Of a stretch of DNA of 64,000 nt, positions 3,631 to 60,247 are shown in pieces. The translations under genes were made by a program, and so were the position numbers. This stretch comes from Acidobacteriota bacterium (GTDB taxonomy: Bacteria; Acidobacteriota; Terriglobia; Acidiferrales; UBA7541): positions 186,001 through 250,000 of the forward strand of contig JABCZN010000001.1 in the NCBI GenBank assembly GCA_013289665.1. Reading direction: 5' to 3'. Numbering within the stretch: the stretch's first letter is position 1; each line of letters starts with the position of its first letter. Below the pieces are notes generated by a model, which was not told the origin of the DNA, searched no databases, and was given only the letters and a program-made list of their open reading frames with translations.

Positions 3631-3660
3631 GTAGTGGCCAGTCTTAAGACCGGCCACTAC
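3631..3660. repeat. Palindromic module A (gtagtggcc-gtcttaagac-ggccactac)
   Basis: gtagtggccagtcttaagaccggccactac, near-perfect palindrome between divergent alaS and thioesterase genes. Confidence 0.9.
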
Positions 3661-11833: not shown

Positions 11834-13054
11834 ATGGCGACAGGCGATGTTTCTCTAAATCCGAGTATCCGCAGCGCGGACACGATTGAGTTTCAAAATG
11901 CCCTGCGCGCGAAAATCGTCGGCCAGGACGACGGCGTTCAGGCGCTCGTCGAGTTGTTCCAGGTCTTCACCGCTGGACTCAACTCCCCAGGCCGCCCCGT
12001 CGGCAATCTGCTGTTCCTCGGCCCCACCGGCTCCGGCAAAACCCGCATCGTGGAAGCCGCCGCTGAAATACTCTTCGGCAGCCCCCGGGCCATCATCAAA
12101 ATCGATTGCGCCGAATTCCAGCACTCTCACGAGATCGCCAAGATCATCGGCTCGCCCCCTGGCTATCTCGGCCACCGCGAAACTCATCCCCTAATCACCC
12201 AGGAAGAACTGGCAAAAAACCACACCGAGAAGCTCAAGCTTTCTTTCCTGCTCTTCGACGAAATCGAGAAAGCCAGCGACGCTCTCTGGCAACTGCTCCT
12301 CGGCATGCTCGACAAAGCTACCCTCACACTTGGCGACAACCGCCGCGTTGATCTCTCGCAAACCGTCATTTTCATGACCTCCAACCTCGGCGCCAACGAA
12401 ATCACCGACCTCATGGGCGGCGGTTACGGCTTCATCAAGTCGGGCGACAAGCCCCAGACCAACATTGACCAGAAAGTCGAGCGTACCGCCGTCGAAGCGG
12501 CACGTCGCAAATTTTCCCCCGAATTCATGAACCGCCTTGACAAACTGGTCGTCTTTCGCCAGCTCAAACGCCCCGAACTCGAAACCGTTCTCGACATCGA
12601 ACTCGGCCTCGTCCAAAAGCGTGTCCTCGACACCGCCACCAACAAATTTCTTTTCCGGGTCACTGACTCCGGTCGAAATTTCCTCCTCCAGGAGGGCACT
12701 GACCAGCGTTACGGCGCTCGCCACCTGAAGCGGGCCATTGAACGCTTCCTCGTCTACCCGCTCGCAAATTTGCTGGCCACCCAGCAAGTCAATCTGGGCG
12801 ATCTCGTCCGCGTCGATTGGGACGGCATCCAAAAAGAGCTAACTTTTGTCCGTGAGAAGGAAGGCGCCATCGTATCCCCGGAAAACCCCGAGGAAACCCT
12901 GGCCACAGGCGCCGCGCCTCTCCAGGACGGCCTCGCCAAGGACGCCCCCGCCGAAGCCGTCTCCGGCGAAACTTCGACACCTCCATCCTTGCCCGCGGCT
13001 TCCCCGGCCGTGGCCCGCCAATCTCTTCAAGGCCGCAAGAAGGAGCACCGCTAA
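11834..13054 (+). CDS. Single-ring Clp/Hsp100-type AAA+ ATPase (paralog 1)
   Basis: Walker A GPTGSGKT, pore loop GSPPGYLGH, Walker B LLFDEIEKA, TSNLG sensor 1, RRKFSPEFMNRLD arginine finger, YGARHLKRAIER sensor 2 / C-terminal domain. Confidence 0.92.
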   Translation: MATGDVSLNPSIRSADTIEFQNALRAKIVGQDDGVQALVELFQVFTAGLNSPGRPVGNLLFLGPTGSGKTRIVEAAAEILFGSPRAIIKIDCAEFQHSHEIAKIIGSPPGYLGHRETHPLITQEELAKNHTEKLKLSFLLFDEIEKASDALWQLLLGMLDKATLTLGDNRRVDLSQTVIFMTSNLGANEITDLMGGGYGFIKSGDKPQTNIDQKVERTAVEAARRKFSPEFMNRLDKLVVFRQLKRPELETVLDIELGLVQKRVLDTATNKFLFRVTDSGRNFLLQEGTDQRYGARHLKRAIERFLVYPLANLLATQQVNLGDLVRVDWDGIQKELTFVREKEGAIVSPENPEETLATGAAPLQDGLAKDAPAEAVSGETSTPPSLPAASPAVARQSLQGRKKEHR

Positions 13055-13541: not shown

Positions 13542-14705
13542 ATGAAAGCAGCAGCCAGGCAGCAGCTGGACCCGACCATCCGCAGCAACGATACCCGCGA
13601 TTTCCACCAGTCGCTGCGCGCCCGAATCGTTGGCCAGGAAGAAGGCGTGCAAGCGCTCGTGGACCTCTATCAGGTCTTCTGCGCTGGCCTGAACTCCCCC
13701 GGCCGCCCGGTCGGCAACCTGCTCTTTCTTGGGCCCACGGGTTCCGGCAAGACCCGCATCGTCGAAGCCGCCGCCGAAATCCTGTTTGGCGACCCGCGCA
13801 TGGTCATCAAAGTCGACTGCGCCGAATTCCAGCACTCTCACGAAATTGCCAAGCTCATCGGCTCGCCCCCGGGTTATCTCGGCCACCGCGAAACTCATCC
13901 TTTGATCACCCAGGAAGCCCTGGCGGCCTCGCACTCCGATAAGCTGAAACTCTCTTTCCTGCTGTTCGACGAAATTGAAAAGGCCAGCGACGCCCTCTGG
14001 CAATTGCTCCTCGGCATGTTGGACAAGGCCACGTTGACCCTCGGCGACAACCGCCGCGTGGATCTTTCCCAGACCGTCATCTTCCTCACCTCCAACCTCG
14101 GCGGCGGCGAAATCACCGAACTCATGGGCGGAGGCTATGGCTTCATCAAGGCCGGCGACAAGTCGGCCGAGAATCTCGACGAAAAAGTGCAGCGCACCGC
14201 GGTCGAAGCCGCTCGTCGCAAATTTTCTCCCGAGTTCATGAACCGCCTCGACAAGATCGTCGTTTTCCATCCCCTGCATCGCAAACAGCTGGAGCAGGTT
14301 CTCGACATCGAACTCGCCATGGTGCAGCAGCGCGTGCTTGAGACTGCCAAGGGCCAATTCCTGTTCCGCGTCACCACGAATGCCCGCGACTTCCTCTTGC
14401 AGGAAGGCACGGACCAGCGCTACGGCGCTCGCCATCTCAAGCGCTCCATCGAACGCCACGTCGTCTACCCCATGGCCAACCTACTCGCCACCGACCAGGT
14501 TCGCCTCGGCGACATGATCTGCGTTGATTGGGAGCCTTCCGGCGATCATCTTGACTTCATTCGCGAAGGGGAAAACGTCGCGATTCCCGTGCGCCGTCCC
14601 GACCCGGTAGTCGCTCCAAAGGCCACGCAAGCCCGCGGCGGCCGCCCCGTCGAAGCCCCCGGCGTAACGCTCCCACCCGAGCCCACGCCCCGCATCGCCC
14701 GCTAA
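13542..14705 (+). CDS. Single-ring Clp/Hsp100-type AAA+ ATPase (paralog 2)
   Basis: Near-collinear with 11834-13054 and with identical core motifs; tandem paralog. Confidence 0.92.
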   Translation: MKAAARQQLDPTIRSNDTRDFHQSLRARIVGQEEGVQALVDLYQVFCAGLNSPGRPVGNLLFLGPTGSGKTRIVEAAAEILFGDPRMVIKVDCAEFQHSHEIAKLIGSPPGYLGHRETHPLITQEALAASHSDKLKLSFLLFDEIEKASDALWQLLLGMLDKATLTLGDNRRVDLSQTVIFLTSNLGGGEITELMGGGYGFIKAGDKSAENLDEKVQRTAVEAARRKFSPEFMNRLDKIVVFHPLHRKQLEQVLDIELAMVQQRVLETAKGQFLFRVTTNARDFLLQEGTDQRYGARHLKRSIERHVVYPMANLLATDQVRLGDMICVDWEPSGDHLDFIREGENVAIPVRRPDPVVAPKATQARGGRPVEAPGVTLPPEPTPRIAR

Positions 14706-14767: not shown

Positions 14768-14830
14768 GCTCCTGTGGCGCAGCCATTCCTGGCTGTGCTC
14801 TTCGAATTCCGGTAGTCCACGGCTCAAGAG

Positions 14831-16731: not shown

Positions 16732-18420
16732 TTATGATACCTCGGGAGCCGGAACAATCGCGGTTTTGTGAATCTGCTCCGCCCGCTTCAACGCTTCCTC
16801 AATATTCGCACAAATATTTTCCTTTCCGATGTGCCGTTCAAATCCAGCCTCGCGCATCAACGCCTCGGGTTGCGGCCTTGCGCCACACACCAGCATGGCC
16901 CGTCCGTTTGCTCGCAAAATCTCCGCTAGCTCTTCCAAGGCCGCGATCCCCGTCGCGTCAATTGCGGTCATGTTTCGTAACCGCAGAATCACAATGGGAG
17001 GAAGAGCAGTCATGTCTTCCGTGACCTCCGTGATCTTGTCGGTCACCCCGAACAGAAACGGCCCGTGAATCCTGTATACCGCCGCATATTCGGGAATATC
17101 CTTGTCCTGAAGAATGTGCGACCGCCCGTCCTCGATGTAATCGTCCGTAACCTTCGAAACCGTTGTCGTCATCGAGATCTTCCGGATGAAGCTGAACGCC
17201 GCCAGGATCATCCCCACTTCCACCGCCAGCGTCAGGTCCGCCACCACCGTCAGCGTCAACGTCAGCACCCACACGCTGATGTCGGCCGCGCTGAGTTTCA
17301 GAATCTCGGGAATTTCTTTCCAATCGCCCATGTTATAGGCGACCATCAGCAGAATTCCAGCCAGCGCCGCCAGCGGTACGTTTTTCACCAACGGGGCTGC
17401 GAACAGAATCACCGCCAGCAGGGTCAGCGCGTGAATCACTCCCGCCACCGGAGTCCTCGCCCCCGCCCGCACGTTCGTTGCGGTTCTCGCAATTGCGCCC
17501 GTCGCCGGCAATCCGCCGAACAAGGGCGAAGCCATATTCGCCACCCCCTGTGCAATCAACTCCACATTCGGGTTGTGCTTGTCGCCGCTCATGCGGTCGG
17601 AAACCACCGCCGAAAACAAAGACTCAATCGCGCCCAGCATCGCCACTGTGATCGCCGGCGACAGCAGGTGCAGAAGCAACTGCGGTTGCAGCCTCGGCAT
17701 CGCCAGGTGCGGCAAGCCGCTCGGAATGCCGCCAAACCGCGTTCCAATTGTCTCAATGGGCAAATGAAAGATCGCCACCGCCGCTGTGGCGCCAAAGCAC
17801 ACCAGGATGGCCCCGGGAATCCGCTTGAAAAACTTTGCGCAAATAATCATCACGGCCAGTGAAGCGAGCCCGACCAACGTGGCCACCCAGTTCAAGGTGT
17901 GAAAATTCTCCGTAATCGCGCCCATGCGGTGAAAAAAGTCGCCGGGCAAATGCTCCATCCGCAGCCCGAACAAATCCCTGATCTGGGTGCTGGCAATCAG
18001 GATGGCGATTCCGTTCGTGAAGCCCACCACCACCGGCCGCGGAAAATACTTCACCATGCTGCCGAGGCCGGTCGCGCCCATAATCACCAGAATCAACCCG
18101 GCCAGCATCGTGCACGTGAACAAGCCATCCAGCCCATACTTCGAAACAATCCCCAGCACCACCACCACGAATGCGCCTGTCGGCCCGCCAATTTGTGTTT
18201 TGGATCCACCCAAAGCCGAAATCAGGAACCCCGTCACAATGGCGCAGTAAATACCCGCTTGCGGCGAAACTCCCGACGCAATCGCAAACGCCATCGCTAG
18301 CGGCAGCGCCACCAGACCCACAGTCACGCCGGCAATCAAATCCGCCGTAAATTTTTCAGAATTGTATTCGCGCAGAAGTAAAACTGATTTGGGCAACCAC
18401 GCGTCGATCGCAGCGCTCAT
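16732..18420 (-). CDS. SulP family anion transporter with C-terminal STAS domain
   Basis: FTADLIAGVTVGLVALPLAMAFAIASGVSPQAGIYCAIVTG; C-terminal STAS-like VILRLRNMTAIDATGIAALEEL. Confidence 0.93.
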   Translation of the reverse strand: MSAAIDAWLPKSVLLLREYNSEKFTADLIAGVTVGLVALPLAMAFAIASGVSPQAGIYCAIVTGFLISALGGSKTQIGGPTGAFVVVVLGIVSKYGLDGLFTCTMLAGLILVIMGATGLGSMVKYFPRPVVVGFTNGIAILIASTQIRDLFGLRMEHLPGDFFHRMGAITENFHTLNWVATLVGLASLAVMIICAKFFKRIPGAILVCFGATAAVAIFHLPIETIGTRFGGIPSGLPHLAMPRLQPQLLLHLLSPAITVAMLGAIESLFSAVVSDRMSGDKHNPNVELIAQGVANMASPLFGGLPATGAIARTATNVRAGARTPVAGVIHALTLLAVILFAAPLVKNVPLAALAGILLMVAYNMGDWKEIPEILKLSAADISVWVLTLTLTVVADLTLAVEVGMILAAFSFIRKISMTTTVSKVTDDYIEDGRSHILQDKDIPEYAAVYRIHGPFLFGVTDKITEVTEDMTALPPIVILRLRNMTAIDATGIAALEELAEILRANGRAMLVCGARPQPEALMREAGFERHIGKENICANIEEALKRAEQIHKTAIVPAPEVS

Positions 18421-18598
18421 AAAATCATCAAGGCGTTTCCCTCCACCCTCGCCCAAGTCTACCAGCCCCAGGGCAGGGAACCGTGCGATCCATGCACACC
18501 CGTGTACTCCGAGGCATCTCCACCCTGCGCTGTTTTCCAGTGATTTGTTCTAGCAGGGCTCGCCCGGCGCGGCGGACGAGCAGTTCTTCACGGTCGCA

Positions 18599-18623
18599 GC
18601 GGCCAGTCTTCAGACTGGACAGC
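18599..18623. repeat. Module A-like palindrome
   Basis: gcggccagtcttcagactggacagc. Confidence 0.65.
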
Positions 18624-18763
18624 CAACTTCTTTGCCAACGCTAAGACTCAAACGTCTCATTCTAAGGGCACCCGATAAGGATGCCCGAACGACCTCAACT
18701 CGAACGTTTCCCAGAATTTTCAATTCGAAAATTTCTTCCCACGCACTGACAATTTCCACTCCC

Positions 18764-20275
18764 TCAATCCGCCGCCTCACTTCTGTTTACTCCCGCCCTC
18801 CACCGCAACACCGGCTTCCGCGCGGCTCCCACTTCATCCAATCGCCGCACCCGCGTCGTGTGCGGCGCCGTCTTCACCAGCTCGGGCGTAGCCGCCGCCT
18901 CTTTCGCAATCGACTTCATCGCCTCCACAAACAGATACAGCTCTTCCTTCGACTCCGACTCCGTCGGCTCGATCATCAACGCCCCCGGCACAATCAGGGG
19001 AAACGCCGTCGTATACGGGTGAAATCCGTAATCAATCAGCCGCTTCGCAATGTCCATTGTGTTCACGCCATTCTTCTTCTGAATCGCGTCGCTGAACACC
19101 ACCTCATGCATCGATGGCTTCGTGTACGGCAAATCAAACACGCCCTCCAGCCCCTTACGGATGTAATTCGCGTTCACCACCGCGTCTTCTGTCGCCTGCC
19201 GTACGCCAGGCCCGTACGCCAAAATGTACGCCAGCGCGCGCACCAGCACGCCAAAATTTCCCACGAACGCCTTCACCCGCCCAACGCTTTGCTTCCGGTT
19301 GAAATCAAGCGCCAGCCTGCCCCCTTCTTTCTCCACCAGCACCGGTGTCGGCAGATACGGCTCCAGCAGTTTCTTCATCGCCACGGGGCCGGCGCCCGGC
19401 CCGCCGCCACCATGCGGCGTCGAAAACGTCTTGTGCAAATTCAGGTGCATCACGTCTACGCCCAGGTCGCCTGGCCGTGTCACGCCCGTCAGCGCGTTCA
19501 TGTTCGCGCCATCCATGTACAGCAGCGCGCCCTTCGCGTGCAGGATCTCCGCAATCTGCGGCACCTGCTGCTCAAAAATTCCCAGTGTGCTCGGATTCGT
19601 CAGCATCAGCGCCGCTACGTCTTCCGTCACCTGCTCGCGCAAATGCTCCAGGTCCACCTGCCCGTCGGCGTTGGACTTGATATTTTCCACTTCATATCCG
19701 GCAATCACCGCCGTCGCCGGATTCGTCCCGTGCGCGGAATCGGGAATCAGCACCTTCTTCCGCGGATTTCCATTCTTCTCGTGATGCGCGCGAATCAGAA
19801 GCAACCCGGTCAGCTCGCCCTGCGCCCCCGCAGCCGGCTGTAGGGTGATCGCATCCATTCCGGTAATTTCGAGCAAACACTTTTCCAGCAGTTGCAGCAC
19901 CTTCAGGCAACCCTGCGAAAGTTCCTGCGGCTGGTACGGGTGCTCGGTGGCAATTCCGTCGAGCCGGGCCACAAACTCATTCACCCGCGGATTGTATTTC
20001 ATCGTGCAGGAACCCAGCGGATACATCCCCAAATCAATTGCGTAATTCCAGGTCGAAAGCCGCGTGAAGTGGCGGATTACCTCGATCTCGCTCACCTCCG
20101 GGAATCCCTCCACACCCTCGTGCCTGTGTGCCTCGCCCAGCGCCTTCGCGGGATCCACAGCCGGCACATCCAGCGGCGGCAATTCAAACGCCCGCTTCCC
20201 CGGCGACGACTTCTCAAAAATCAAACCCTCATTCTGATTCGTATGCCGCGTAGCCTTCTTAATCTTCTCGCTCAT
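18764..20275 (-). CDS. gcvPB: Glycine dehydrogenase (decarboxylating) subunit 2
   Basis: LQPAAGAQGELTGLLLIRAHHE; PLP lysine region HLNLHKTFSTPHGGGGPGAGP. Confidence 0.95.
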   Translation of the reverse strand: MSEKIKKATRHTNQNEGLIFEKSSPGKRAFELPPLDVPAVDPAKALGEAHRHEGVEGFPEVSEIEVIRHFTRLSTWNYAIDLGMYPLGSCTMKYNPRVNEFVARLDGIATEHPYQPQELSQGCLKVLQLLEKCLLEITGMDAITLQPAAGAQGELTGLLLIRAHHEKNGNPRKKVLIPDSAHGTNPATAVIAGYEVENIKSNADGQVDLEHLREQVTEDVAALMLTNPSTLGIFEQQVPQIAEILHAKGALLYMDGANMNALTGVTRPGDLGVDVMHLNLHKTFSTPHGGGGPGAGPVAMKKLLEPYLPTPVLVEKEGGRLALDFNRKQSVGRVKAFVGNFGVLVRALAYILAYGPGVRQATEDAVVNANYIRKGLEGVFDLPYTKPSMHEVVFSDAIQKKNGVNTMDIAKRLIDYGFHPYTTAFPLIVPGALMIEPTESESKEELYLFVEAMKSIAKEAAATPELVKTAPHTTRVRRLDEVGAARKPVLRWRAGVNRSEAAD

Positions 20276-20317
20276 CTTCCTCTTCTCAGCGGACTCTGCG
20301 TTAGTCCGCCTGTTATC

Positions 20318-21658
20318 TTACGCCGCTAAAGCCTTCCGAACTCCCGTCACCAGCCTCTCAATTTCCCCACGCGAAGTAGTCTCCGTAACACAAACCACTG
20401 CATTCTTCGACAACTCCGGATAAGCCGTCCCCAAAACAAACGGCCCGATAATTTTTTCTCTCAACAATTCCGCATTCACCAGTTTCACTGACTTCGGAAA
20501 CGCCACCGTAAATTCATTAAAAAACGCCCCCGAAAAAGCCCGCGTCACTCCCGGAATCTTCTCCAACTCGCTCAACGCAAAATGCGCCTTCGACAAATTC
20601 TGCTCCGCCTGCTCCCGCAAGCCCTCTTTCCCGAGCAGCGTCAAATGCACCGTGGCCGCCAGCGCGCAAAGCGCCTGGTTCGTGCAAATATTCGAAGTCG
20701 CTTTCTCCCGCCGTATATGCTGCTCTCGCGTAGCCAGGGTCAGCACAAATCCCCGCTGCCCCTCGCTGTCCGTCGTCTGTCCCGAAAGCCGCCCGGGCAT
20801 CTGCCGGACATACTTTTCCCGCGAAGCAATCACGCCCGCATACGGCCCGCCATAACTCGGCGCCAACCCAAAACTCTGCGCTTCCATCGCCACAATGTCC
20901 GCTTCCGCCGGCGGCTTCACCGCGCCCAGCGACACCGCTTCCGTCACCGCCACCACCAGCATTGCCCCCGCGGCCTTCGTAATCTCCGCCAACGGCCTCA
21001 GCGATTCAATCGTCCCGAAAAAGTTCGGCGACTGCACCACCACTGCGCAGACATCCCCGCCAATCGCCGTCTTCAACGCCTTCGCGTCCAGCGTCCCCGC
21101 CGTCGTGTAGGAAATCTCTTCGACGTGCAGCCCGGAATTCTTCGCATACGTCCGCAGTACCTCCCGGTACTCGGGATGCACCGACCGCCCCACAAGCACG
21201 CGCCGCCGCCCCGTCAGCCGCTCCGCCATCAGCACCGCTTCCGTCGTCGCCGTCGAGCCGTCATACATGGACGCGTTCGCCACTTCCTGCCCGGTCAACT
21301 GGCACATCAGCGTCTGAAACTCAAAAATAGCCTGCAGCGTGCCCTGCGTAATTTCCGCCTGATACGGTGTGTACGACGTCAAAAACTCGCCCCGCTGAAT
21401 AATCGTGTCCGTCACCACCGACCGCAAGTGGTTGTAAACACCCGCGCCCAGAAAACTCGTATACCCGCCGGAATTCTCCGCCGCGCGCTCCTGAAAATAG
21501 CGAATCACTTCCTGCTCGGAAAAAGGTCCTGGCAGGTTCAGCGGTTTTTTCAACCGGTATTTTTCGGGAATGGACGAAAACAACTCTTCAACGTTCTTGA
21601 TCCCGATGGCCGCCAGCATCTCCTGGCGCTCCGCCGGGCTCTTCGGCAAGTAGCGCAT
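20318..21658 (-). CDS. gcvPA: Glycine dehydrogenase (decarboxylating) subunit 1
   Basis: MRYLPKSPAERQEMLAAIGIKNVEELFSSIPE...; ATGA overlap with the gcvH stop. Confidence 0.95.
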   Translation of the reverse strand: MRYLPKSPAERQEMLAAIGIKNVEELFSSIPEKYRLKKPLNLPGPFSEQEVIRYFQERAAENSGGYTSFLGAGVYNHLRSVVTDTIIQRGEFLTSYTPYQAEITQGTLQAIFEFQTLMCQLTGQEVANASMYDGSTATTEAVLMAERLTGRRRVLVGRSVHPEYREVLRTYAKNSGLHVEEISYTTAGTLDAKALKTAIGGDVCAVVVQSPNFFGTIESLRPLAEITKAAGAMLVVAVTEAVSLGAVKPPAEADIVAMEAQSFGLAPSYGGPYAGVIASREKYVRQMPGRLSGQTTDSEGQRGFVLTLATREQHIRREKATSNICTNQALCALAATVHLTLLGKEGLREQAEQNLSKAHFALSELEKIPGVTRAFSGAFFNEFTVAFPKSVKLVNAELLREKIIGPFVLGTAYPELSKNAVVCVTETTSRGEIERLVTGVRKALAA

Positions 21659-22059
21659 CAGGCAGACGCTTCTTTCTTCTTCTCCGCGATGTACGCCTCG
21701 TACGCCGCGGCGTCCATCAGCGTGCCCACCTCTGCCGGATTCGCCAGCTTGAGTTTGATCAACCACCCCGCCGTGTGCGGATCCGTATTAATCGTTTCCG
21801 GCTTCTGCACTAGCGCGCCATTCGCTTCCACGACTTCGCCGCTAGCCGGCGCATAAATCTCGCTAACCGCCTTCACCGATTCCACCGACCCAAACGTCTT
21901 CCCGGTCGTCAGCTTCGCGCCCACTTTCGGCAGCTCCACAAACACCACATCGCCCAATTCGCCCTGCGCATAATCGGTGATCCCTACCGTAGCCACGTCG
22001 CCCTTCACCTCAATCCACTCATGGTCCTTCGAATATTTGAATTGTGTTGGATATCCCAT
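21658..22059 (-). CDS. gcvH: Glycine cleavage system H protein
   Basis: KYSKDHEWIEVKGDVATVGITDYAQGELGDVVFVELP...GSVESVKAVSEIYAPASGEV lipoyl domain. Confidence 0.97.
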   Translation of the reverse strand: MGYPTQFKYSKDHEWIEVKGDVATVGITDYAQGELGDVVFVELPKVGAKLTTGKTFGSVESVKAVSEIYAPASGEVVEANGALVQKPETINTDPHTAGWLIKLKLANPAEVGTLMDAAAYEAYIAEKKKEASA

Positions 22060-22110
22060 CGTTCCACTCCTTTCGTCTAGGTGTTCGCAGTCAAACAAAT
22101 CTTGTCTTTC

Positions 22111-22220
22111 GCGGGGCCGGGCTTGCCCCGCCCTCTTGGGTTTCCCCGGTCGTTGTAGCGGTCACCTTCAGGTGGCCCCGCTTCCCCCATGTAGTAACCG
22201 GTCTTAAGACCGGCCACTAC
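22111..22220. repeat. Composite mosaic: module C + linker + module B + module A
   Basis: gcggggccgggcttgccccgccctcttgggtttccccggtcgttgtagcggtcaccttcaggtggccccgcttcccccatgtagtaaccggtcttaagaccggccactac. Confidence 0.88.
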
Positions 22221-22246
22221 AACCAAGCCGATCCCATCCCAAAACC

Positions 22247-23416
22247 TCAAACCGTTCGAACCTTCCGCACCCGCTTATAAAACGGCGTCGCCACCACCAC
22301 CGCCTTGCACTTCTGCCCCCGAATCTCCACAAAAACCGCCGTCCCCAACCCCGTCATCGAGGGGGGCACATAAGCCAGCGCAATATTCTTCCCGAGCGTC
22401 GGCGAAGGTGACCCGCTAGTCACCACGCCAATCTCATTCCCACTTTCATCCAAGCACCGGTACCCATCCCGCGCAATTCCTCGCTCCACCATCTCCAAAC
22501 CCACCAACGCCCGCCGCAATCCATCGTTCTTCAACCTTACCAACACGTCCCGCCCAATAAACGCGCCCTTCTCCAGATGGCAATACCGGTCCAGCCCCGC
22601 TTCCCAAACATTAATCTTGTCGCTGATCTCGTGCTCGTACAACGCCATCTTCGATTCAAGCCGCAGCGTATTCCGCGCGCCCAGCCCGCAAGCCACAATC
22701 CCAAACTCTTTCCCCGCGGCAAACACTTCGGTCCACACGCGCTCGCTCGTCGCCACGTCCGACGGCACATAAATCTCAAATCCGTCTTCGCCCGTATATC
22801 CCGTCCGCGCAACCAGTGCATTCGTCAGCCCGCAAACCGTTCCGTGCGTGAACCAGTAATTCTTGATCGTCTCCAGCTTCGCGTCCGTCAGCTTCTGCAG
22901 CACTTCCGCCGCCCGCGGCCCTTGAATCGCCAGTTGGGTGTACGCGTCGCTCAACTCCTCCACCGCGCAATCCATTCCCTTGGTGTTCTCGCGCACCCAA
23001 GAGATATCCTTCTCCCGTGTCCCCGCATTGATCACCAGCAGGTAGTCGTCCTCGCCCAGCCGGTGCACGATCACGTCGTCCACAAACGTTCCGTTCGGAT
23101 ACAGCATCGCCGAATACTGCGCCTGCCCGATCGCCAGCTTCGACGCGTCATTCATCGTCAGGTGCTCGACCGCCGCCAGCGCCCCGCCGGCCTTCTTCGC
23201 GCCATGAATCCGAATGTCCCCCATATGGCTCACGTCAAACACGCCCACGCCCCCGCGCACTGCCCGGTGCTCGCACATCAACCCGCCGCTGCACGGATAC
23301 TCCACCGGCATGTCCCAGCCGCCAAAGTTAACCATCTTGGCGCCCAGGCGCTTATGCAGCGCATTCAGTGCCGTTTTGCGAAGACCTGAATTGGCAGGAG
23401 AGTTTCCGGAGTCCAT
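22247..23416 (-). CDS. gcvT: Glycine cleavage system T protein (aminomethyltransferase)
   Basis: TALNALHKRLGAKMVNFGGWDMPVEY...VFDVSHMGDIRI...GYTGEDGFEIYVP. Confidence 0.96.
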   Translation of the reverse strand: MDSGNSPANSGLRKTALNALHKRLGAKMVNFGGWDMPVEYPCSGGLMCEHRAVRGGVGVFDVSHMGDIRIHGAKKAGGALAAVEHLTMNDASKLAIGQAQYSAMLYPNGTFVDDVIVHRLGEDDYLLVINAGTREKDISWVRENTKGMDCAVEELSDAYTQLAIQGPRAAEVLQKLTDAKLETIKNYWFTHGTVCGLTNALVARTGYTGEDGFEIYVPSDVATSERVWTEVFAAGKEFGIVACGLGARNTLRLESKMALYEHEISDKINVWEAGLDRYCHLEKGAFIGRDVLVRLKNDGLRRALVGLEMVERGIARDGYRCLDESGNEIGVVTSGSPSPTLGKNIALAYVPPSMTGLGTAVFVEIRGQKCKAVVVATPFYKRVRKVRTV

Positions 23417-23589
23417 TCCGTTTGCTCAGGCAAAAACCGATGTTAGCACGCGCCCCACACGCGGTCAAAACAACGCGCCATTCCTGGCAGTGGCACATTT
23501 TCCGCCTTGCGAGCCAAATGATCCGCCTTGCTCTGGCATCGGCTTTCTTCAGGTCGTACGGTCCTGCTTGGCCTTAGTGAAATCCCTCA

Positions 23590-23856
23590 TTAGGGAAGCT
23601 TGGTGAACTTTTGCTTTGTCTTTCTTGAGACCATGTAGGCAACAAAGCAGCCCGTTTCGACGATTTCACTAAGATACTTCCGAATTTCGTGGTGTGCACC
23701 TAAAGTTATGGCATCGGCAAGTTTCGTCATCGGCGCCGAGGAATGAGATGGGATTTTAGATTGAGTAATGTGATCGTAGTTCAGGTTTGGCCAGGAAGCC
23801 AAGTTTGGTAGGTTTTCTAACGAACCAACCGCATTCTGAACGACAAGGCGCTGCAA
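23590..23856 (-). CDS. Hypothetical small ORF in a lower-GC patch
   Basis: 88-aa ORF MQRLVVQNAVGSLENL...; composition differs from its neighbours; no recognisable family. Confidence 0.25.
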   Translation of the reverse strand: MQRLVVQNAVGSLENLPNLASWPNLNYDHITQSKIPSHSSAPMTKLADAITLGAHHEIRKYLSEIVETGCFVAYMVSRKTKQKFTKLP

Positions 23857-23947
23857 GGAAATCTCTCGTGGCTCTTATGCATCCCCAACCTCACCCGCCC
23901 CTTGCTGCCCGCCTCGCCCTCAGGTACAGTTTTTTCCGGAGGGACCG

Positions 23948-24127
23948 ATGGCCGCCCGCCAACAAGTTCTCTGCGTACAGTGCGACAAAACCGAGGAATA
24001 CTGCACCTGCGATAAATACTGCACCATCTGCAAAAGCCTCGAAAGAGTGCGCCTCGCCGCTGATGGGTTGTACTATTGTCCGGAGTGCCGCGAAGCCTGC
24101 GACGTCTCCTGGGCCAGCAGCCAATAG
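23948..24127 (+). CDS. 59-aa cysteine-rich, zinc-ribbon-like protein
   Basis: MAARQQVLCVQCDKTEEYCTCDKYCTICKSLERVRLAADGLYYCPECREACDVSWASSQ*; nine Cys in CxxC-type spacing; below the ORF-track length cut-off. Confidence 0.75.
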   Translation: MAARQQVLCVQCDKTEEYCTCDKYCTICKSLERVRLAADGLYYCPECREACDVSWASSQ

Positions 24128-24129
24128 CC

Positions 24130-24501
24130 GTGCCGAAAAATCCTCTCCACCTGCGTCTCTCCCTCGATCACGACGAACGCCTCGCCGCCGCCGCGGGTGG
24201 CGCCATGCGTGTCTTCGCCGACGCCGCCGGCCTCCCCAACGACATCATCGAACAGCTCAAAATCGCCGTCGTCTCCGCTTGCAAGCTCTGCTTCGACTTT
24301 CACCACAATTGCACCACGCCCTGTGAAGTAACTTTCCTTCGACTCAACGATCGCATCCAAGTCGAAGTCGCCGTCCCGGGCGTTGCAGCCCCCGCCGAAA
24401 AGCCCAAGCCTCACTGGGCCGGCGTAGACGACGTCCAATGCGAATCCCGCAACGACTGCGGCGTCCTCCGCCTTACCAAATTCCTCTCTCCCGTCTCCTG
24501 A
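24130..24501 (+). CDS. Degenerate anti-sigma factor / GHKL (RsbW-like) domain protein
   Basis: GTG start 2 nt after the previous stop; LHLRLSLDHDERLAAAAGGAMRVFADAAGLPNDIIEQLKIAVVSACKLCFDFHH resembles the RsbW N-terminal half with an altered N-box. Confidence 0.5.
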   Translation: MPKNPLHLRLSLDHDERLAAAAGGAMRVFADAAGLPNDIIEQLKIAVVSACKLCFDFHHNCTTPCEVTFLRLNDRIQVEVAVPGVAAPAEKPKPHWAGVDDVQCESRNDCGVLRLTKFLSPVS

Positions 24502-24510
24502 TCTTCCCCA

Positions 24511-24577
24511 GTGGCGGCCACCTTCAGGTGGCCAGTTCGTCCTTGTGAGTGCGGAGGCGAAGCTCCGCTTTTACGCA
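24511..24577. repeat. Composite: module B + module E
   Basis: gtggcggccaccttcaggtggccagttcgtccttgtgagtgcggaggcgaagctccgcttttacgc. Confidence 0.8.
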
Positions 24578-24755
24578 TGCATTGATACCACCCAACCCCT
24601 ATTCGCACGCGCGCCGTCCTTCTGCCTGCCCGCCCGAGGAGGGAGGGCATCCGAAAAGGTCCGATCTTGGGACTCCGGCGATTTCTTACAGGAGATGCCC
24701 GAAGAACCTCAACGTCAATTTCTCTCAAAAAGTTAAGTTGGAATTACAACAGGAT

Positions 24756-24783
24756 GCCCCAGGTGCCGGTGTTGCACCTGGGG
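24756..24783. repeat. Hairpin ccccaggtg...gcacctgggg
   Basis: ccccaggtgccggtgttgcacctgggg immediately downstream of the minus-strand gene ending at 24803; no T-run on that strand. Confidence 0.6.
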
Positions 24784-24802
24784 TTGTTCGCTCCACGCAC
24801 CA

Positions 24803-25840
24803 CTACATCTTAAACGCAAACGTATTCTTCTTAATCAACGTCGTCATCTGATCGTCGCTAACCGACAACCGGATCACCACGCGGTCCCCCGACGGGACCA
24901 CATTCGTCTGGTCCAGCAACGCTCCAAGCTCCGGATTATCCTTTGCCGTCTGGTATTTCTTGTAAAGCAATCCCGCCGCCATCAACTGGCTCAGCGTATT
25001 CGCATCTTCCGTCGAACCGCAAACCGCCTGAAATTTTGCGTCCATCCCGCTGCTAGCCGTCGCCGTAATGATCATCGCCTGCATCCGCGCCACCAGCTTC
25101 GCCGCTTCCGGAAACTGCTGCACCTCGGGCGCCAGTTGCCCCATCGCCAGTTTCGTGTACGCCGGATCGAGCACCGCCCATACCACGCCGCTTCCGTTCG
25201 CTTCATTGATCATGTTGTACATCTTGTCGTTCCGCAGCAGGCTGTCCTCTTCTCCGTAGCGCACCGCGATCAGCTTCTCCAGCAATTGCCGGTGTCCAAA
25301 CGCAGCCTTGTTCGAGTCCACGAAAAAGAAAAACAGGTCGTTTGGTCCCACGCCCGATCCAAACGCAAACAACGTGTACCCGTGCGATTTCGTAGTTGGC
25401 AGCTTCTGGGCCTTGAAATATGCTTCTGTCGAATCCGGGTTGTAGCCTCCGAGCGCGATTCCCACGATCTCTTCGCTGTCCGGCGCTTCTGTAGCCGCAG
25501 CACCCGCCGCCGCTGGATCCTTGCTCAACGCCGACTCCGGCACCAGTGCCCAGGTCAGCTCGTCGACCTGCGTATTCGTGTCAATCCCGGCCGCTGCCAG
25601 AAATTTCTCAAACTGCTTGAACTTCTCCGGCAGCATCTGCTGCTCCAGCGCCGGGTACCACTTCATCGTCCGCGCCTTCTTCAAATCCGCATACGCAAAT
25701 TCGCCCACTTCCTTCGGAAATAATCCAATCGTGTCCGCGCCCAGGCCACTTGCCTTCGCGGGCTTCGCCGTTGCCGCCAGCAACGCCAGCAATGCGCACG
25801 CCGCCGCAAATCTCTTTGTCGCCTCTGTCCACTTCTGCAT
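24803..25840 (-). CDS. Secreted hypothetical protein
   Basis: 345 aa; signal peptide AACALLALLAATAKPAKA; coding-like composition throughout. Confidence 0.75.
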   Translation of the reverse strand: MQKWTEATKRFAAACALLALLAATAKPAKASGLGADTIGLFPKEVGEFAYADLKKARTMKWYPALEQQMLPEKFKQFEKFLAAAGIDTNTQVDELTWALVPESALSKDPAAAGAAATEAPDSEEIVGIALGGYNPDSTEAYFKAQKLPTTKSHGYTLFAFGSGVGPNDLFFFFVDSNKAAFGHRQLLEKLIAVRYGEEDSLLRNDKMYNMINEANGSGVVWAVLDPAYTKLAMGQLAPEVQQFPEAAKLVARMQAMIITATASSGMDAKFQAVCGSTEDANTLSQLMAAGLLYKKYQTAKDNPELGALLDQTNVVPSGDRVVIRLSVSDDQMTTLIKKNTFAFKM

Positions 25841-25892
25841 GAATTGCTCCTTTCGGGGGCCGGGGGTAAAGGCTATCTCGTGATCGCGTCTT

Positions 25893-25920
25893 TGTAGGGG
25901 CCGGGCTCGCCCGACCCTCC
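25893..25920. repeat. Module C
   Basis: tgtaggggccgggctcgcccgaccctcc. Confidence 0.7.
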
Positions 25921-25961
25921 GATCTACTGAGGAAACTCTAGTTTACGCTACTCCGTGGCTC

Positions 25962-27473
25962 TCATCCGAGCCGCTTGCGCAGTTCGTCAACTTTGCTTCT
26001 CATCTGCGCCACATACGCCGCATCCTTCAACCCGTCCAGGTTGATCTCCACATTGGCCAAAGCGCCCTTCGCTCCCGCTACTCCCATTAGACGCGCCACC
26101 AGCAAGTCTGACTTCATGGATGCCGCCGAGATTGCTTCCAGTTGTACCAGCTGTTCCACGAGGCTCGCCGCTTTCTCCGCCACTTCCAGCGGCACTTCCG
26201 AAGCGCCCTTTGTCGCCGCCTGAATCGCGGCTTCGCGCGCGGCTTTGTCTTGCGCATTCCCCTGCGGCATTTTGAAGGCCGCCATCACTGCGTCGTAGGA
26301 ACTCGCATCCCGGTCAATCGCCGCCGTCAGTTCGTCGGCGGTTTTTCTCAGCGCGTCCACATTCTCCGAAAGCTTATCTAGAAACGGCGCCTGCATTTTC
26401 TTCTTCCGTGAAAGTCCCGCCACCATCTGCCCCAGCGCCGCGGCCAGCGCCGCCGCAAATGCCGAAACGCTGCCGCCTCCCGGCGTAGGCGCCGCCTCCG
26501 CCACGGCCTCCAGAAACGGCCGCGCCAGGTGCGCCAGCTTGCCGTCCCTCGCTTCCATCGGCGCGCCGCTCAACACATCTGCCAGCTTGTTCTCAAACAC
26601 CTGCGAAGGCGAGAAGTTTTCCAGCTGCAGAAAATAATCCGCCGCTATCTCAATCGCCTTCTTTGGCACCAGCCCCACAATTTCGCTGCCCACGGGCATC
26701 ACGCCATAGCGCTCCGCCTCGCGCTTCACCGCCGCATACACGCGGTGCATCGGTGTCTGCTCGTAATCCGTCAAATTAATCGACACCTGCGCCAGGTTCC
26801 GCGCCTTCAACTCCACCCCCATGGACTTCACGTAGCGAAACCCGCCATTCGAAAACCGAATCGCCCGCGCAATCTTGTTTGCAATCCCGATATCCGAAGT
26901 GTTCAGGTTGACGTTGTATGCGACCAGAAACTTTCGCGCCCCCACCACTGTCACGCCCGCCGTCGGATGCAGCTTCGGCTCGCCGATATCCGGTTGCCGG
27001 TCGGGGTTCTTCTTCAACTCCTCCCGCAGCCCCTCGTATTGTCCGCGCCGCACATTCTCCAGGTTCACGCGGTCCGGCCGCGTCGCCGCCGCTTCATAAA
27101 AGAAAATCGGGATCCGGTAGCGCTTCCAGATCTCCTGCCCCACGCGCTTCGCCAGCGCCACGCAATCTTCCAGCGCTACACCCTCAACAGGAATGAACGG
27201 CACCACGTCGGTCGCTCCGACGCGCGGGTGCGCGCCCTTGTGCTCGTTCATGTCAATCAGTTCCAGCGCTTTGCCCGCACCCAAAATCGCCGCTTCGCCC
27301 ACCGCCTCCGGCTCGCCCGCCAGCGTAATCACGCAACGGTTGTGGTCCGCGTCCATCTCGCGGTCCAGAACGTACACCCCCGGCACGCCGCTCATCACCT
27401 GCACCAGGGCATCCACCTTCGCCGGGTCCCGCCCCTCCGAAAAATTCGGCACGCACTCAATCAGTCTCTTCAT
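25962..27473 (-). CDS. ftcD: Fused glutamate formimidoyltransferase / formimidoyltetrahydrofolate cyclodeaminase
   Basis: MKRLIECVPNFSEGRDPAKVDALVQVM...; C-terminal cyclodeaminase AEAAPTPGGGSVSAFAAALAAALGQMVAGLS. Confidence 0.94.
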   Translation of the reverse strand: MKRLIECVPNFSEGRDPAKVDALVQVMSGVPGVYVLDREMDADHNRCVITLAGEPEAVGEAAILGAGKALELIDMNEHKGAHPRVGATDVVPFIPVEGVALEDCVALAKRVGQEIWKRYRIPIFFYEAAATRPDRVNLENVRRGQYEGLREELKKNPDRQPDIGEPKLHPTAGVTVVGARKFLVAYNVNLNTSDIGIANKIARAIRFSNGGFRYVKSMGVELKARNLAQVSINLTDYEQTPMHRVYAAVKREAERYGVMPVGSEIVGLVPKKAIEIAADYFLQLENFSPSQVFENKLADVLSGAPMEARDGKLAHLARPFLEAVAEAAPTPGGGSVSAFAAALAAALGQMVAGLSRKKKMQAPFLDKLSENVDALRKTADELTAAIDRDASSYDAVMAAFKMPQGNAQDKAAREAAIQAATKGASEVPLEVAEKAASLVEQLVQLEAISAASMKSDLLVARLMGVAGAKGALANVEINLDGLKDAAYVAQMRSKVDELRKRLG

Positions 27474-27567
27474 CTCTCTCCGTTCCGCCCTCTTCTCTCT
27501 GTCCTCTGCGTCACAGCGAACTCCGCGCTAATTCCCACCTTTTGACTCTTGGCACTGATCTGTCCGT

Positions 27568-28833
27568 TTAATCATTCATCCAAACAATCTCCCCACTCTT
27601 CATCGTCATCCAGCAAGTATTCATCCCAAAATAATAGGGAATTTCCCGATAATCCTCCACTTCGTACACCGCCAGATCCGCCTGCTTTCCCGCTTCGAGC
27701 GATCCAATCGTCTTCTCCCGCCCAAGCGCATAAGCCCCATTGATGGTGGCCGCCGCAATCGCCTCCGCCGGCGTCATCCGTAGTTGCGAACAAGCCAGCG
27801 ACAAAATCATCGGCATGCTCACCGTCGGAGAAGTCCCCGGATTGTAGTCCGTCGCCAATCCCACAATCGCCCCAGCCTCAATCAATTTCCTTGCCGGCGC
27901 ATACTGCTTCAGCCCCAAATGAAAGTCGCACCCGGGCAATAGCGTACCCACTGTCTCCGATTTCCCCAGCGCCCGGATATCCGCGTCATTCACCTGCTCC
28001 AGGTGATCGCAACTAGCCGCTCCCAGCTCCACCCCCAACTGCGTAGCTCCGCTGCGAGACAACTGCTCCGCATGCAGCCGAGGCCGCAACCCATGCTCCT
28101 TCGCCTTCCTCAGCAATCTCTTCGATTGCCCCACCGTAAAAGCCCCGCGATCGCAAAACACGTCGCAATACTCCGCCAAATCGCCCACCACCACTTCCGG
28201 CAACAGTTTCTCCATCAACAAGGCAAGATATTGCTCCGCTCCATCCTTTTTCGCACGAAATTCAAGCGGCACCACATGCGCACCCAAAAATGTCGAAACA
28301 ATCTCGAGCGGCTGCTCCTGGTTCAACTCCCGATGCAGCCGCAATATCTTAAGTTCGCTCGCGGCGTCCAGTCCGTACCCGCTCTTAGCCTCCACCGTCG
28401 TTGTGCCGTATTCCGCAAACTCCCGCAAAGCCGCAATCGCTCTGCTCTTCAGCGCATCGTGCGTCGCGGCCCGCAATTTCTTCACCGAATTCAGTATCCC
28501 CCCGCCCTTGCGTGCAATCTCTTCGTAACTTGCTCCCTGAATCTTCAGCTCATACTCCTCTGTCCGGCTCGCTGCATGAATCAAGTGCGTGTGCGAATCC
28601 ACAAATCCCGGCAACACCACGCGCCCGCCCACATCCAATTTCTCTGCCGCCTTAGCCGCGGCCCGCCGCTCCACGTCCGCGCGCGCCCCGGCCGAAACAA
28701 TTCTCCCGTCACGCACCAACACCGCGCCGTTTTTGATCAATCCAATTTTGGAAAGGGAATTGCCCCGCCGCGGACCGCCTCCCCGCAGCGTAACCACCTG
28801 TGAAGCGCCTGTAATAAGAATGCTGCCGCTCAA
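27568..28833 (-). CDS. hutI: Imidazolonepropionase
   Basis: VVLPGFVDSHTHLIHAASRTEEYELKIQGASYEEIARKGGGI; LATDYNPGTSPTVSMPMI. Confidence 0.96.
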   Translation of the reverse strand: MSGSILITGASQVVTLRGGGPRRGNSLSKIGLIKNGAVLVRDGRIVSAGARADVERRAAAKAAEKLDVGGRVVLPGFVDSHTHLIHAASRTEEYELKIQGASYEEIARKGGGILNSVKKLRAATHDALKSRAIAALREFAEYGTTTVEAKSGYGLDAASELKILRLHRELNQEQPLEIVSTFLGAHVVPLEFRAKKDGAEQYLALLMEKLLPEVVVGDLAEYCDVFCDRGAFTVGQSKRLLRKAKEHGLRPRLHAEQLSRSGATQLGVELGAASCDHLEQVNDADIRALGKSETVGTLLPGCDFHLGLKQYAPARKLIEAGAIVGLATDYNPGTSPTVSMPMILSLACSQLRMTPAEAIAAATINGAYALGREKTIGSLEAGKQADLAVYEVEDYREIPYYFGMNTCWMTMKSGEIVWMND

Positions 28834-28837
28834 AAAC

Positions 28838-28910
28838 GTGGCACAGGCTTCAGCCTGTGCTCTTGGGTTTTTCTTGCCTTTGTAGCGGCCGCCTTCCGAG
28901 GCAGACGCTT
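28838..28910. repeat. Composite: module D + linker + module F
   Basis: gtggcacaggcttcagcctgtgctcttgggtttttcttgcctttgtagcggccgccttccgaggcagacgc. Confidence 0.82.
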
Positions 28911-28921
28911 TTCACATCCAC

Positions 28922-33581: not shown

Positions 33582-33660
33582 GTAGCATAGGCTTCAGCCT
33601 GTGCTACAGGGTTCTCCCAACTTTGTAGCGGCCGCCTTCTGCCTGCCCGCGTAGGAGGGA
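33582..33660. repeat. Composite: module D + linker + module F
   Basis: gtagcataggcttcagcctgtgctacagggttctcccaactttgtagcggccgccttctgcctgcccgcgtaggaggga. Confidence 0.82.
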
Positions 33661-34271: not shown

Positions 34272-34350
34272 GTGTAGGGGCGGGGCTTGCCCCGCCCTCC
34301 TGGGTTTCTCTTGCTGTTGTAGCGGCCGCCTTTTGAGCCGGGCCGTTCTT
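34272..34350. repeat. Composite: module C + linker + module F
   Basis: tgtaggggcggggcttgccccgccctcctgggtttctcttgctgttgtagcggccgccttttgagccgggccg. Confidence 0.82.
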
Positions 34351-40560: not shown

Positions 40561-40670
40561 CTCTAGAGTGTATCCTTTTGCGGCGCGCGGGAGAACCGGG
40601 GAGAACCGGCGGTGACCGGACACGACGCGCTTATTCGTCTATAATCCGCTGGAGCATTTCGGCCAGCGCA

Positions 40671-40694
40671 ACGGCCACCTTCAGGTGGCCCCGC
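40671..40694. repeat. Module B
   Basis: acggccaccttcaggtggccccgc. Confidence 0.75.
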
Positions 40695-40774: not shown

Positions 40775-42763
40775 ATGATCTGTAGCGTATCGAACATCAG
40801 AGCTTGGGTGAGATTTCTGGCAACCGCAACTTTTGGAGTGCTTTTATCCATTTCCGCGCAGCTACCAATCGCAGCGCAGAAGAACGACAACTCGACTCTC
40901 CCCGGCGAAACGCCCGCCCATTTCCAGCCCGTCACCAGGGATTTCGACTTCGAACGCCGCGACGTAATGATCCTCATGCGCGACGGCGTAAAACTCCACA
41001 CGGTCATCCTCATACCCAGGGGCGCCAAAAACGCCCCCATCCTTCTCACTCGCACTCCCTACAACGCCGACGAACTGGTCAGCCACCGCGCCAGCTCGCA
41101 TCTCGGCCCCGTCCTTTGGGGCTACGACAACGCCACTGAAGTCATCGTCGAAGACGGCTACATCCGTGTCCTCCAGGACGTCCGTGGCAAGTACAACTCC
41201 GAAGGCGACTACGTAATGACACGCCCGCTTCACGGCCCGCTGAATCCTTCGCCCGTGGATCACTCCACCGACACCTACGACACCATTGACTGGCTCGTCA
41301 AAAATATTCCCGAAACCAACGGCAAAGTCGGAATCCTCGGAATTTCCTACGACGGCTTCACTCCGCTGATGGCGCTCGTCAATCCGCACCCAGCACTCAA
41401 AGTCGCCGTGCCGATGAATCCCATGGTCGACGGCTGGATGGGCGACGACTGGTTCCACAACGGCGCCTTCCGCCAGCAAAACCTGCCATACATCTACGAA
41501 CAGGAGGCCACCCAGAAGAACGAAGAGAAATGGTGGTCCGGCGTCCATGACGACTACGATCTTTATATGCGCGCGGGCTCGGCCGGCGAACTGGGCCGCG
41601 AACACGGCATGGAACAACTCGGCTTCTGGAAAAAACTGATCGAGCATCCCAGCTACGATTCCTGGTGGCAGCAACAGGCCATGGACAAAATTCTCGCCGC
41701 CCAGCCGCTCAAAGTTCCCACCATGGTTGTTGACAGCCTCTGGGATCAGGAGGATATCTACGGCGCTCCAGCTCTCTACAAGGCCCTCAAGCCCAAGGAC
41801 ACAGCCAACGACAAATTATTCCTCGTCCTCGGCCCGTGGCACCACGGCCAGGAAATCGAAGACGCCGGCACTCTGGGCGCACTGCATTTCAACAGCGACA
41901 CCGGCCTCTATTTCCGCCAGGAAATTCTTCGCCCATTCCTCGCTCGCTATCTGAAAGACGGCGCCCCGCAATCGGAAGTCGCGCCCGTAAACGCATTCGA
42001 AACCGGCACCAACCGCTGGCTGAAGCTGAGCAGTTGGCCTTCAGGCTGCCCATCCGGTTGCACCGTCAAACCCACGCCCCTGTATCTCGCCGCAGGACTG
42101 AGACTAAGTTTCGCCGCTCCCGGAAAAGACGACACGGCCTACGACGAGTACGTCTCCAATCCCGCCAAGCCTGTGCCATTCCGCGCGCGCCCGATTCAGC
42201 CAGTCGGCTACAGCGACGGAATGACCTGGGCCGAATGGCTTGTTGACGACCAGCGCGAAGCCTCCGGCCGCCCCGACGTGCTCACTTTCATTTCCGACGA
42301 ATTAAAAGAACCGCTCAAAATCAGCGGCCAACCCATCGCCAACTTGATCGCCTCCACCACCGGCACCGATTCCGACTGGGTCGTCAAACTCATTGACGTC
42401 TACCCCGACGAAGTCGCCGGCCAGCCTGCCATGGGCGGCTATGAACTGATGGTTGCCGCTGACATTTTCCGCGGCCGCTATCGCGAAAGTTTCGAAAATC
42501 CAAAATCCATTCCGCGCGACACTCCGCTCGTCTACCGCTTCGCCCTGCCAACGGCGAACCACGTCTTCTTGCCCGGCCACAAAGTAATGGTCCAGGTCCA
42601 ATCCAGTTGGTTCCCCCTCTACGATCGCAACCCGCAGACCTTCGTCCCCAACATCTTCTGGGCCAAGCCCGATGACTATCGCAAAGCCACCCAGCGCGTC
42701 TATCACACCCCGACCCAATTCAGCTTCATTGAATTACCAGTGGCCACCGCCAAAGAAAAGTAG
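40775..42763 (+). CDS. CocE/NonD family (X-Pro dipeptidyl-peptidase S15) hydrolase, secreted
   Basis: MRDGVKLHTVILIPRGAKNAPILLTRTPY; GISYDGFTPLMAL; VLGPWHHGQ. Confidence 0.9.
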   Translation: MICSVSNIRAWVRFLATATFGVLLSISAQLPIAAQKNDNSTLPGETPAHFQPVTRDFDFERRDVMILMRDGVKLHTVILIPRGAKNAPILLTRTPYNADELVSHRASSHLGPVLWGYDNATEVIVEDGYIRVLQDVRGKYNSEGDYVMTRPLHGPLNPSPVDHSTDTYDTIDWLVKNIPETNGKVGILGISYDGFTPLMALVNPHPALKVAVPMNPMVDGWMGDDWFHNGAFRQQNLPYIYEQEATQKNEEKWWSGVHDDYDLYMRAGSAGELGREHGMEQLGFWKKLIEHPSYDSWWQQQAMDKILAAQPLKVPTMVVDSLWDQEDIYGAPALYKALKPKDTANDKLFLVLGPWHHGQEIEDAGTLGALHFNSDTGLYFRQEILRPFLARYLKDGAPQSEVAPVNAFETGTNRWLKLSSWPSGCPSGCTVKPTPLYLAAGLRLSFAAPGKDDTAYDEYVSNPAKPVPFRARPIQPVGYSDGMTWAEWLVDDQREASGRPDVLTFISDELKEPLKISGQPIANLIASTTGTDSDWVVKLIDVYPDEVAGQPAMGGYELMVAADIFRGRYRESFENPKSIPRDTPLVYRFALPTANHVFLPGHKVMVQVQSSWFPLYDRNPQTFVPNIFWAKPDDYRKATQRVYHTPTQFSFIELPVATAKEK

Positions 42764-42840
42764 CATAGGCTTTAGCCTGTGTTCTTCGCTTACTCCTGCC
42801 TTTGTGGGGCGGCTTTGGGCCGCCTCTTGGGTTTCCCCAA
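42761..42840. repeat. Composite: module D + module C-like + linker
   Basis: tagcataggctttagcctgtgttcttcgcttactcctgcctttgtggggcggctttgggccgcctcttgggtttcccc. Confidence 0.78.
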
Positions 42841-45730: not shown

Positions 45731-45990
45731 TGAGTGCGAGAGCGAAGCTCTCGCTTTCGCGGCCCAATTCCCACGACAAAACAATCGGGATAAACGCACT
45801 CGCGTTTCCCACGCTCTTGCCTTTGTGGGGGCGGGACTTGCCCCGCCCTCTTGGGTTATTCCTGCCTTTGTAGCGGCCGTCTTCCGAGGTCCGCGTTTGG
45901 GACTCCGGATGCACTTGAGGACCGGGCGCCTTTCTCTTTCTCCGGACTCTCTTGCGCTTGTAGGGCCCGCCTTCTGAGGCAGGCCGTCTT
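45731..45990. repeat. Extended mosaic: modules E, C, F, F with linkers
   Basis: tgagtgcgagagcgaagctctcgctttcgcgg ... tttgtgggggcgggacttgccccgccctcttgggttattcctgcctttgtagcggccgtcttccgaggtccgc ... cttgtagggcccgccttctgaggcaggcc. Confidence 0.85.
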
Positions 45991-49378: not shown

Positions 49379-49412
49379 TGTAGGGGCCGGGCTCTCCCGG
49401 CCCCCTAGGGTT
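49379..49412. repeat. Module C
   Basis: tgtaggggccgggctctcccggccccctagggttt. Confidence 0.75.
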
Positions 49413-60207: not shown

Positions 60208-60247
60208 TTGTAGGCGCGGGGCTTGCCCCGCCCTCCTTGGTTGTTCC
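60208..60247. repeat. Module C + linker
   Basis: ttgtaggcgcggggcttgccccgccctccttggttgttccc. Confidence 0.78.

Follow-up and report, generated by a model that had tools for sequence, protein, structure and literature searches.

Families of GTAG-tagged REP hairpins in an Acidobacteriota genome form mixed head-to-tail arrays and almost always lie on the locally C-rich strand

In an Acidobacteriota genome the spacer between gcvT and gcvH is occupied by three different short palindromes placed one after the other, an arrangement which raises the question of what kind of element these palindromes represent, how different ones come to be combined, and why they point the same way. The window (the whole 64-kb stretch of DNA analysed) corresponds to bases 186001-250000 of C1, a 775-kb contig of the Acidobacteriota MAG G000 (4.52 Mb in 26 contigs, 77% complete), the gcvT of which finds its best protein matches in Acidobacteria MAGs, some labelled gp2. 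A fuzzy scan with each module consensus was performed over 850 kb of G000 using the reversed sequence as control, which was almost without matches and above which the module signal stood out clearly; exact GTAG hairpin counts and a single-sequence nhmmer search were too insensitive for module detection. The G000 stretches added to C1 were partly picked for having modules, gene calls were obtained with a simple home-made predictor, and several of the genomes compared are MAGs.

The window holds 27 intergenic modules, and all 27 are on the + strand, a single-strand placement absent from a preceding sequence-only reading of this DNA; the combinations which that reading had named were all recovered at their sites, by sequence and by fuzzy scan. 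The features are as follows.

3631-3660, +: REP module A (fuzzy scan)
14774-14797, +: D2-type module (GTGGCGCAGCCATTCCTGGCTGTG), missing from the earlier list; D2 flanks RAYT genes in relatives
18596-18620, +: REP module A, degenerate (fuzzy scan)
22110-22133, +: REP module C with a decayed foot (CGCG), opening the C-B-A array between gcvT and gcvH
22134-22154, +: linker, composed of the C 3' tail TCTTGGGTTT and the 5' context of the unit that follows
22155-22181, +: REP module B (C-B-A array)
22191-22220, +: REP module A, double foot GTAG...CTAC (C-B-A array)
24511-24533, +: REP module B (B-E pair; fuzzy scan)
24547-24576, +: module E, GAGT foot, TTTT tail (B-E pair); a RAYT-like gene in L293 lies between E-like arms of 32 nt
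25894-25917, +: REP module C (fuzzy scan)
28838-28860, +: REP module D, GTGG foot (D-F pair)
28861-28881, +: linker, D tail plus F 5' context
28882-28912, +: REP module F (D-F pair)
33582-33607, +: REP module D (D-F pair; fuzzy scan)
33625-33645, +: REP module F, degenerate (D-F pair; fuzzy scan)
34274-34297, +: REP module C (C-F pair; fuzzy scan)
34298-34318, +: linker, C tail plus F 5' context
34319-34339, +: REP module F (C-F pair; fuzzy scan)
40668-40690, +: REP module B, degenerate foot (fuzzy scan)
42760-42782, +: REP module D (fuzzy scan)
42804-42824, +: further hairpin GTGGGGCGGCTTTGGGCCGCC, 44 nt after D, then TCTTGGGTTT
45732-45760, +: module E (E-C-F-F array)
45825-45848, +: REP module C (E-C-F-F array; fuzzy scan)
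45849-45869, +: linker, C tail plus F 5' context (E-C-F-F array)
45870-45890, +: REP module F (E-C-F-F array; fuzzy scan)
45960-45985, +: REP module F, second (E-C-F-F array; fuzzy scan)
49380-49403, +: REP module C (fuzzy scan)
54068-54090, +: REP module B (B-D pair; fuzzy scan)
54101-54123, +: REP module D, degenerate foot (B-D pair; fuzzy scan)
60210-60233, +: REP module C (fuzzy scan)
63824-63847, +: REP module B (fuzzy scan)

Modules A, B, C, D and F share the anatomy of a REP, namely a 5' GTAG (or GTGG) foot abutting a stem of 8-10 bp with a loop of 2-4 nt, and those modules that were folded formed DNA hairpins; module E starts with GAGT, ends with TTTT and is devoid of the GTAG foot. 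The modules are multi-copy and intergenic, with 103 intergenic copies on C1 (770 kb), although the number of copies per family is low relative to classic REPs. Further families were found beyond those first listed, being G (GTAGGGCCCGTCCGCC...), D2 (GTAGCACAGGCANTCNTGCCTGTG) and the hairpin at 42804. A longer form of F with a second hairpin (GCATTTTGCACCCCGGATGAATTTGCGGGGCGGGC), ≈60 nt in all, occurs at 45870-45935 of the window and at L147 and L144, and two adjacent paralogous genes (11834-13054 and 13542-14705) show 74-84% DNA identity over long stretches at a spacing of 1711. The foot and hairpin anatomy, the intergenic location, the multiplicity of families and, in related genomes, both the association with RAYT genes and the presence of empty spacers were directly observed, and the modules are very probably coexisting families of GTAG-tagged REPs, with E as a GAGT-tagged counterpart, i.e. 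single-hairpin units predicted to be spread by RAYTs and landing on the locally C-rich strand. With the GTAG-tagged REPs of Di Nocera 2013 (PMC3733652) they have in common the foot, the intergenic hairpin of 20-40 nt, the very short loop and the presence of several families per genome; the GTAG phyla of that study exclude Acidobacteria, for four species of which it reports TIR-flanked transposases.

Hairpins of this size may also be transcription signals. T runs come after the F and E hairpins, and module density is highest in convergent gaps (1.42 per kb, as opposed to 0.37 in divergent gaps), both of which favour intrinsic terminators or RNA stabilisers that have turned repetitive. Module orientation nevertheless bears no relation to transcription (32 run with the flanking genes and 35 against them), several families are without a T run, and the same families flank RAYT genes, rendering this explanation most improbable. 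A structured RNA family, as suggested from the sequence-only reading, was rejected, because no Rfam covariance model matched the modules at the gathering threshold and their orientation is independent of transcription.

RAYTs, which are HuH-Y1 transposases that act on single-stranded DNA, are the proposed spreaders of these units. The 77%-complete G000 yielded no match to PF01797 or to two RAYT queries (F and D); of the 41 genomes searched with PF01797, G000 among them, 36 gave a match. Among relatives of the same genus, F copies flank a RAYT gene in G003 (34-nt inverted arms, L178/L272) and G004 (28-nt arms, L274), and on one side only in G001 (L173). The RAYTs at least 48% identical to the D-type enzyme of G001 all (7/7) have D or D2 hairpins nearby (L174, L176, L303, L304, L305, L306 and L307, where L305 belongs to the same class and the others to the same genus). 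RAYTs with C-like hairpins on their flanks are present at L277, L278 and L287, and copies of A flank one in L297 (all same genus); a single RAYT-like gene, L293, which belongs to a different family within the class, lies between a pair of E-like arms of 32 nt. Scored against NCBIfam NF047646 (REP-associated tyrosine transposase), the enzymes of the F, D and C-like types pass its cut-off, the C-like hairpin of the corresponding REPtron (GTAGAGGCCGGGCTTYAGCCCGGC) having a loop unlike that of C in the window. The search for RAYTs was thus positive in relatives for the A, C-like, D and F families, with a cognate RAYT flanked by the same REP, gave a candidate RAYT-like gene for the E-like family, and was negative in G000 and, across the related genomes, for family B. 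In G014, RAYT loci L252 and L255 are flanked by GTGG-footed hairpins (GTGGCCTACCCTTTGC...GCAAAGGGTGGGCCACTCT) of a different REP type. The published REPtron (Nunvar 2010, PMC2817692; NF047646) is likewise a RAYT flanked by inverted REPs of a single family, as seen for F and D in related species; it differs in that none was detected in the window's genome, the family-specific RAYTs being scattered among relatives. TnpA class 3 offers another likeness within Acidobacteria, its atypical REP-like hairpins (PMC6006769; Solibacter usitatus has about 600 of them) also being tied to a Y1 HuH enzyme, but the foot of these is CnGA rather than GTAG or GAGT. Since no RAYT is detectable in the 77%-complete G000, its REP population is probably old and decaying.

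The gcv locus allows a comparison of occupied and empty sites. The gcvT-gcvH spacer of G000 measures 187 nt with C-B-A; L059-L062, L064 and L065 have a much shorter one that lacks these modules, L058 has one of ≈219 nt filled with other sequence, and L063 has one of ≈320 nt. The 11-kb gcv region is collinear with that of the closest relative, L058, at 74-79% nucleotide identity, and contains eight scanned modules in G000 and none in L058, in which a D2-type hairpin is present. Insertion-like differences between species were found, but as these species are ≈77% identical the differences may also stem from indels other than insertion. At fourfold sites of window positions 17247-28416, compared with L058, L059 and L060, changes assigned to the L058 branch number 73 for G>C and 2 for C>G, and with the sites near saturation this spectrum is only indicative; the changes on this branch are strand-directional transversions rather than transitions.

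The combination of modules into arrays is not fortuitous. Pairs 24-60 nt apart number 20 on C1, where 4.8 are expected upon intergenic reshuffling (maximum 13 in 2000 shuffles), such that the adjacency apparent from the sequence-only reading is borne out. Close pairs are on the same strand in 22 of 24 cases, and the order of families is fixed, none of 19 pairs violating it where the null gives a mean of 4.5 and a minimum of 1 in 300. In most pairs that begin with B the next unit follows at 33-37 nt; after C, D and G the distance is 43-45 nt. The linker, previously described as common to all modules, did not hold up as such: the 3' tail TCTTGGGTT follows C in 17/25, D in 8/19, B in 4/35, A in 2/23, F in 0/53 and E in 0/14 cases, the 5' contexts are family-specific (GCCTTT before F and C, CTTTT before E, T before A), and the full linker exists in ≈4-6 copies in G000 with one partial match elsewhere, by which a high linker copy number, genome-wide or across the genus, was rejected. 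A C-like copy beside the RAYT of L277 carries the tail CTCTTGGGTTT, so the tail travels with its unit in another species. From these sequences we infer that the shared joint consists of flanks belonging to the individual families, namely the C/D tail and the insertion context of the next unit, rather than of a separate component, which would also explain the family order.

A mechanism can be proposed on this basis. Each family would depend on an enzyme of its own that inserts it behind a preferred pyrimidine-rich target, which would be GCCTTT for F and C, CTTTT for E and T for A, and the C/D tail together with such a pyrimidine target would serve as landing site for the next unit, from which the fixed order, the 33-47 nt spacing and the apparently shared linker would follow. 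If units land on one strand only, being the locally C-rich one, the arrays would be head-to-tail.

This layout departs from that of known REP clusters. BIMEs consist of alternating inverted REPs, whereas the close pairs here are predominantly same-strand (22/24); REPINs consist of two inverted copies of the same REP with a conserved spacer, whereas the close pairs here are hetero-family and head-to-tail. Mixing of families is in itself not new, as it is known from the Y/Z1/Z2 BIMEs of E. coli (PMC8266576) and the hybrid BIMEs of Stenotrophomonas (PMC2817692), likewise mixed-family clusters with characteristic spacing, though alternating in orientation where the present arrays keep one strand and a fixed family order. 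The view that simple REPs and BIMEs do not explain the modules was thus mostly mistaken, except that the head-to-tail, strand-locked layout is indeed unlike ordinary BIMEs; the accompanying proposal of a modular non-autonomous element was right in substance, the element being REPs of several families, with copies of five (A, C-like, D, E-like and F) lying beside RAYT or RAYT-like genes in relatives. Head-to-tail hetero-arrays are absent or rare among the REPs of PMC3733652. In P. fluorescens SBW25, tandem arrays of two REP types (GI-GIII) are forward on one genome side and reverse on the other (PMC3116915), which may already have hinted at a strand lock; the largest two are near-identical copies, whereas here the combinations differ at each site. 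The modules are a known kind of element, REPs, in a new arrangement.

The surprising part is the coupling of REP orientation to base composition: the strand carrying GTAG is almost always the locally C-rich strand, as judged at third codon positions, whatever the gene strand. In the window, third-codon-position GC skew is ≈-0.5 in + genes and ≈-0.4 in - genes, and along C1 it forms alternating domains from -0.66 to +0.46 that are independent of gene strand (the window, L013-L047 and L210-L222). On C1, 97 of 103 modules are on the locally C-rich strand and module density climbs with absolute skew from 2.4 to 29 per 100 kb; as this contig is mostly of one sign, such that circular shifts of the modules along it reach 96 concordant, C1 alone is weak evidence and the argument is carried by other contigs and species. 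In G003, GTAG hairpins identified de novo agree 13 to 0 and distinct REP sites 16/16 (an earlier tally of looser consensus matches gave 16/19, and a gene-strand-balanced measure 12/16 or 12/19). Windows of G010, G022 and G014 picked by REP sequence alone agree 29 to 3 (29/32), and A-family copies in G041, the genome of L058, 28 to 2 (n=30), with neighbours 1-30 kb apart being on the same strand in 36/39 pairs; neighbouring REP sites are not independent of one another. The A-type REP pattern has 126 matches in G041 (JAJPIE01 MAG), as against 4 in the control, strongly strand-clustered along contigs. The rule is seen in six species, i.e. the window's species and five related ones. Gene-strand codon bias was rejected as the cause of the skew, which holds whichever strand a gene lies on and also in intergenic DNA of C1 after masking of the modules, where the rule is followed 91 to 12. 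No description of a REP orientation-skew coupling was found among the open-access full texts searched.

Why the REP strand tracks composition is a sub-question, and the likelihoods worded below are shares of it, separate from that of the REP identification. The simplest answer is that the C-rich strand merely offers more target sites, and candidate targets are indeed 1.1-2.7 times commoner on it; modules in the same regions, however, are distributed 78 to 2, so that an at most 2.7-fold surplus is insufficient and this answer is highly improbable. Another is that the strand lock is a fossil of replication direction, REPs having been inserted by strand on the replichores and inversions having later shuffled the blocks along with their skew. 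The use of the lagging-strand template by IS200/IS605-type enzymes (PMC6006769) and the agreement of skew and REP orientation in both signs speak for such a fossil. Against it, regional skew shows no correlation between G000 and G003 over 124 orthologs located in 24 collinear blocks (r = -0.02), and within unbroken collinear blocks the sign changes in G003 and not in G000, by which this answer is strongly disfavoured and improbable.

The shape of the skew bears on the two other answers. Skew alternates every 20-100 kb with REPs near its peaks, contig C3 of G003 (L232-L251) showing waves of ≈±0.4 that flip sign every 20-40 kb. The C excess centred on REPs peaks within 1-3 kb, fades over 5-12 kb and reaches further 5', the 5'/3' difference being 0.18 [0.04, 0.32] in G010/G022/G014 and 0.15 [-0.03, 0.33] in G003; in G003, REP sites exceed random intergenic sites in skew even when the latter are given the favourable strand (P = 0.0002). 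Such a profile, together with the lineage-specificity of the skew, would be accounted for if REPs and RAYTs themselves cause it, strand-specific nicking at hairpins having the effect that one strand is repeatedly resynthesised or exposed and that substitution around the hairpin becomes asymmetric; the 3'-OH left by RAYT cleavage has been suggested as a possible primer of synthesis (PMC2817692). The REP-centred peak favours this causal role, though either model can produce such a peak. Some skew peaks of G003 are nonetheless without a detected REP, the gcv region of L059 and L060 is skewed without these modules, and the domains of G000 are much broader than its REP clusters, with a flat REP-centred profile; we regard REP-caused skew as rather unlikely. 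REP-free skew peaks favour instead a changeable local asymmetry of other origin, e.g. local replication initiation, which would expose one strand and allow RAYTs to insert where DNA is single-stranded. In strong domains the C-rich strand is also A-rich, resembling replication asymmetry. However, no bacterial process producing sign changes at intervals of 20-100 kb is known to us, and genes on C1 show no strand preference (178.7 vs 173.0 kb), which leaves a prior local asymmetry a serious possibility somewhat short of an even chance.

Tentatively, and with more doubt than confidence, it may be proposed that REPs are a focus of local strand-asymmetric evolution, either through RAYT nicking or by marking a strand-polarised process, such that genomes of this genus are patterned in alternating domains of 20-100 kb with a sign that goes with REP orientation, and the hairpin drives or reports local DNA processing. 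In its collinear regions the genus provides natural comparisons with and without REPs, by which a direct test of the two causal models becomes possible. If the coupling is real beyond the genus, it would show from sequence alone at which sites and on which strand RAYTs act, a question that has long stood open for REPs, and GC skew in some bacteria would report local DNA processing and not replication direction alone.
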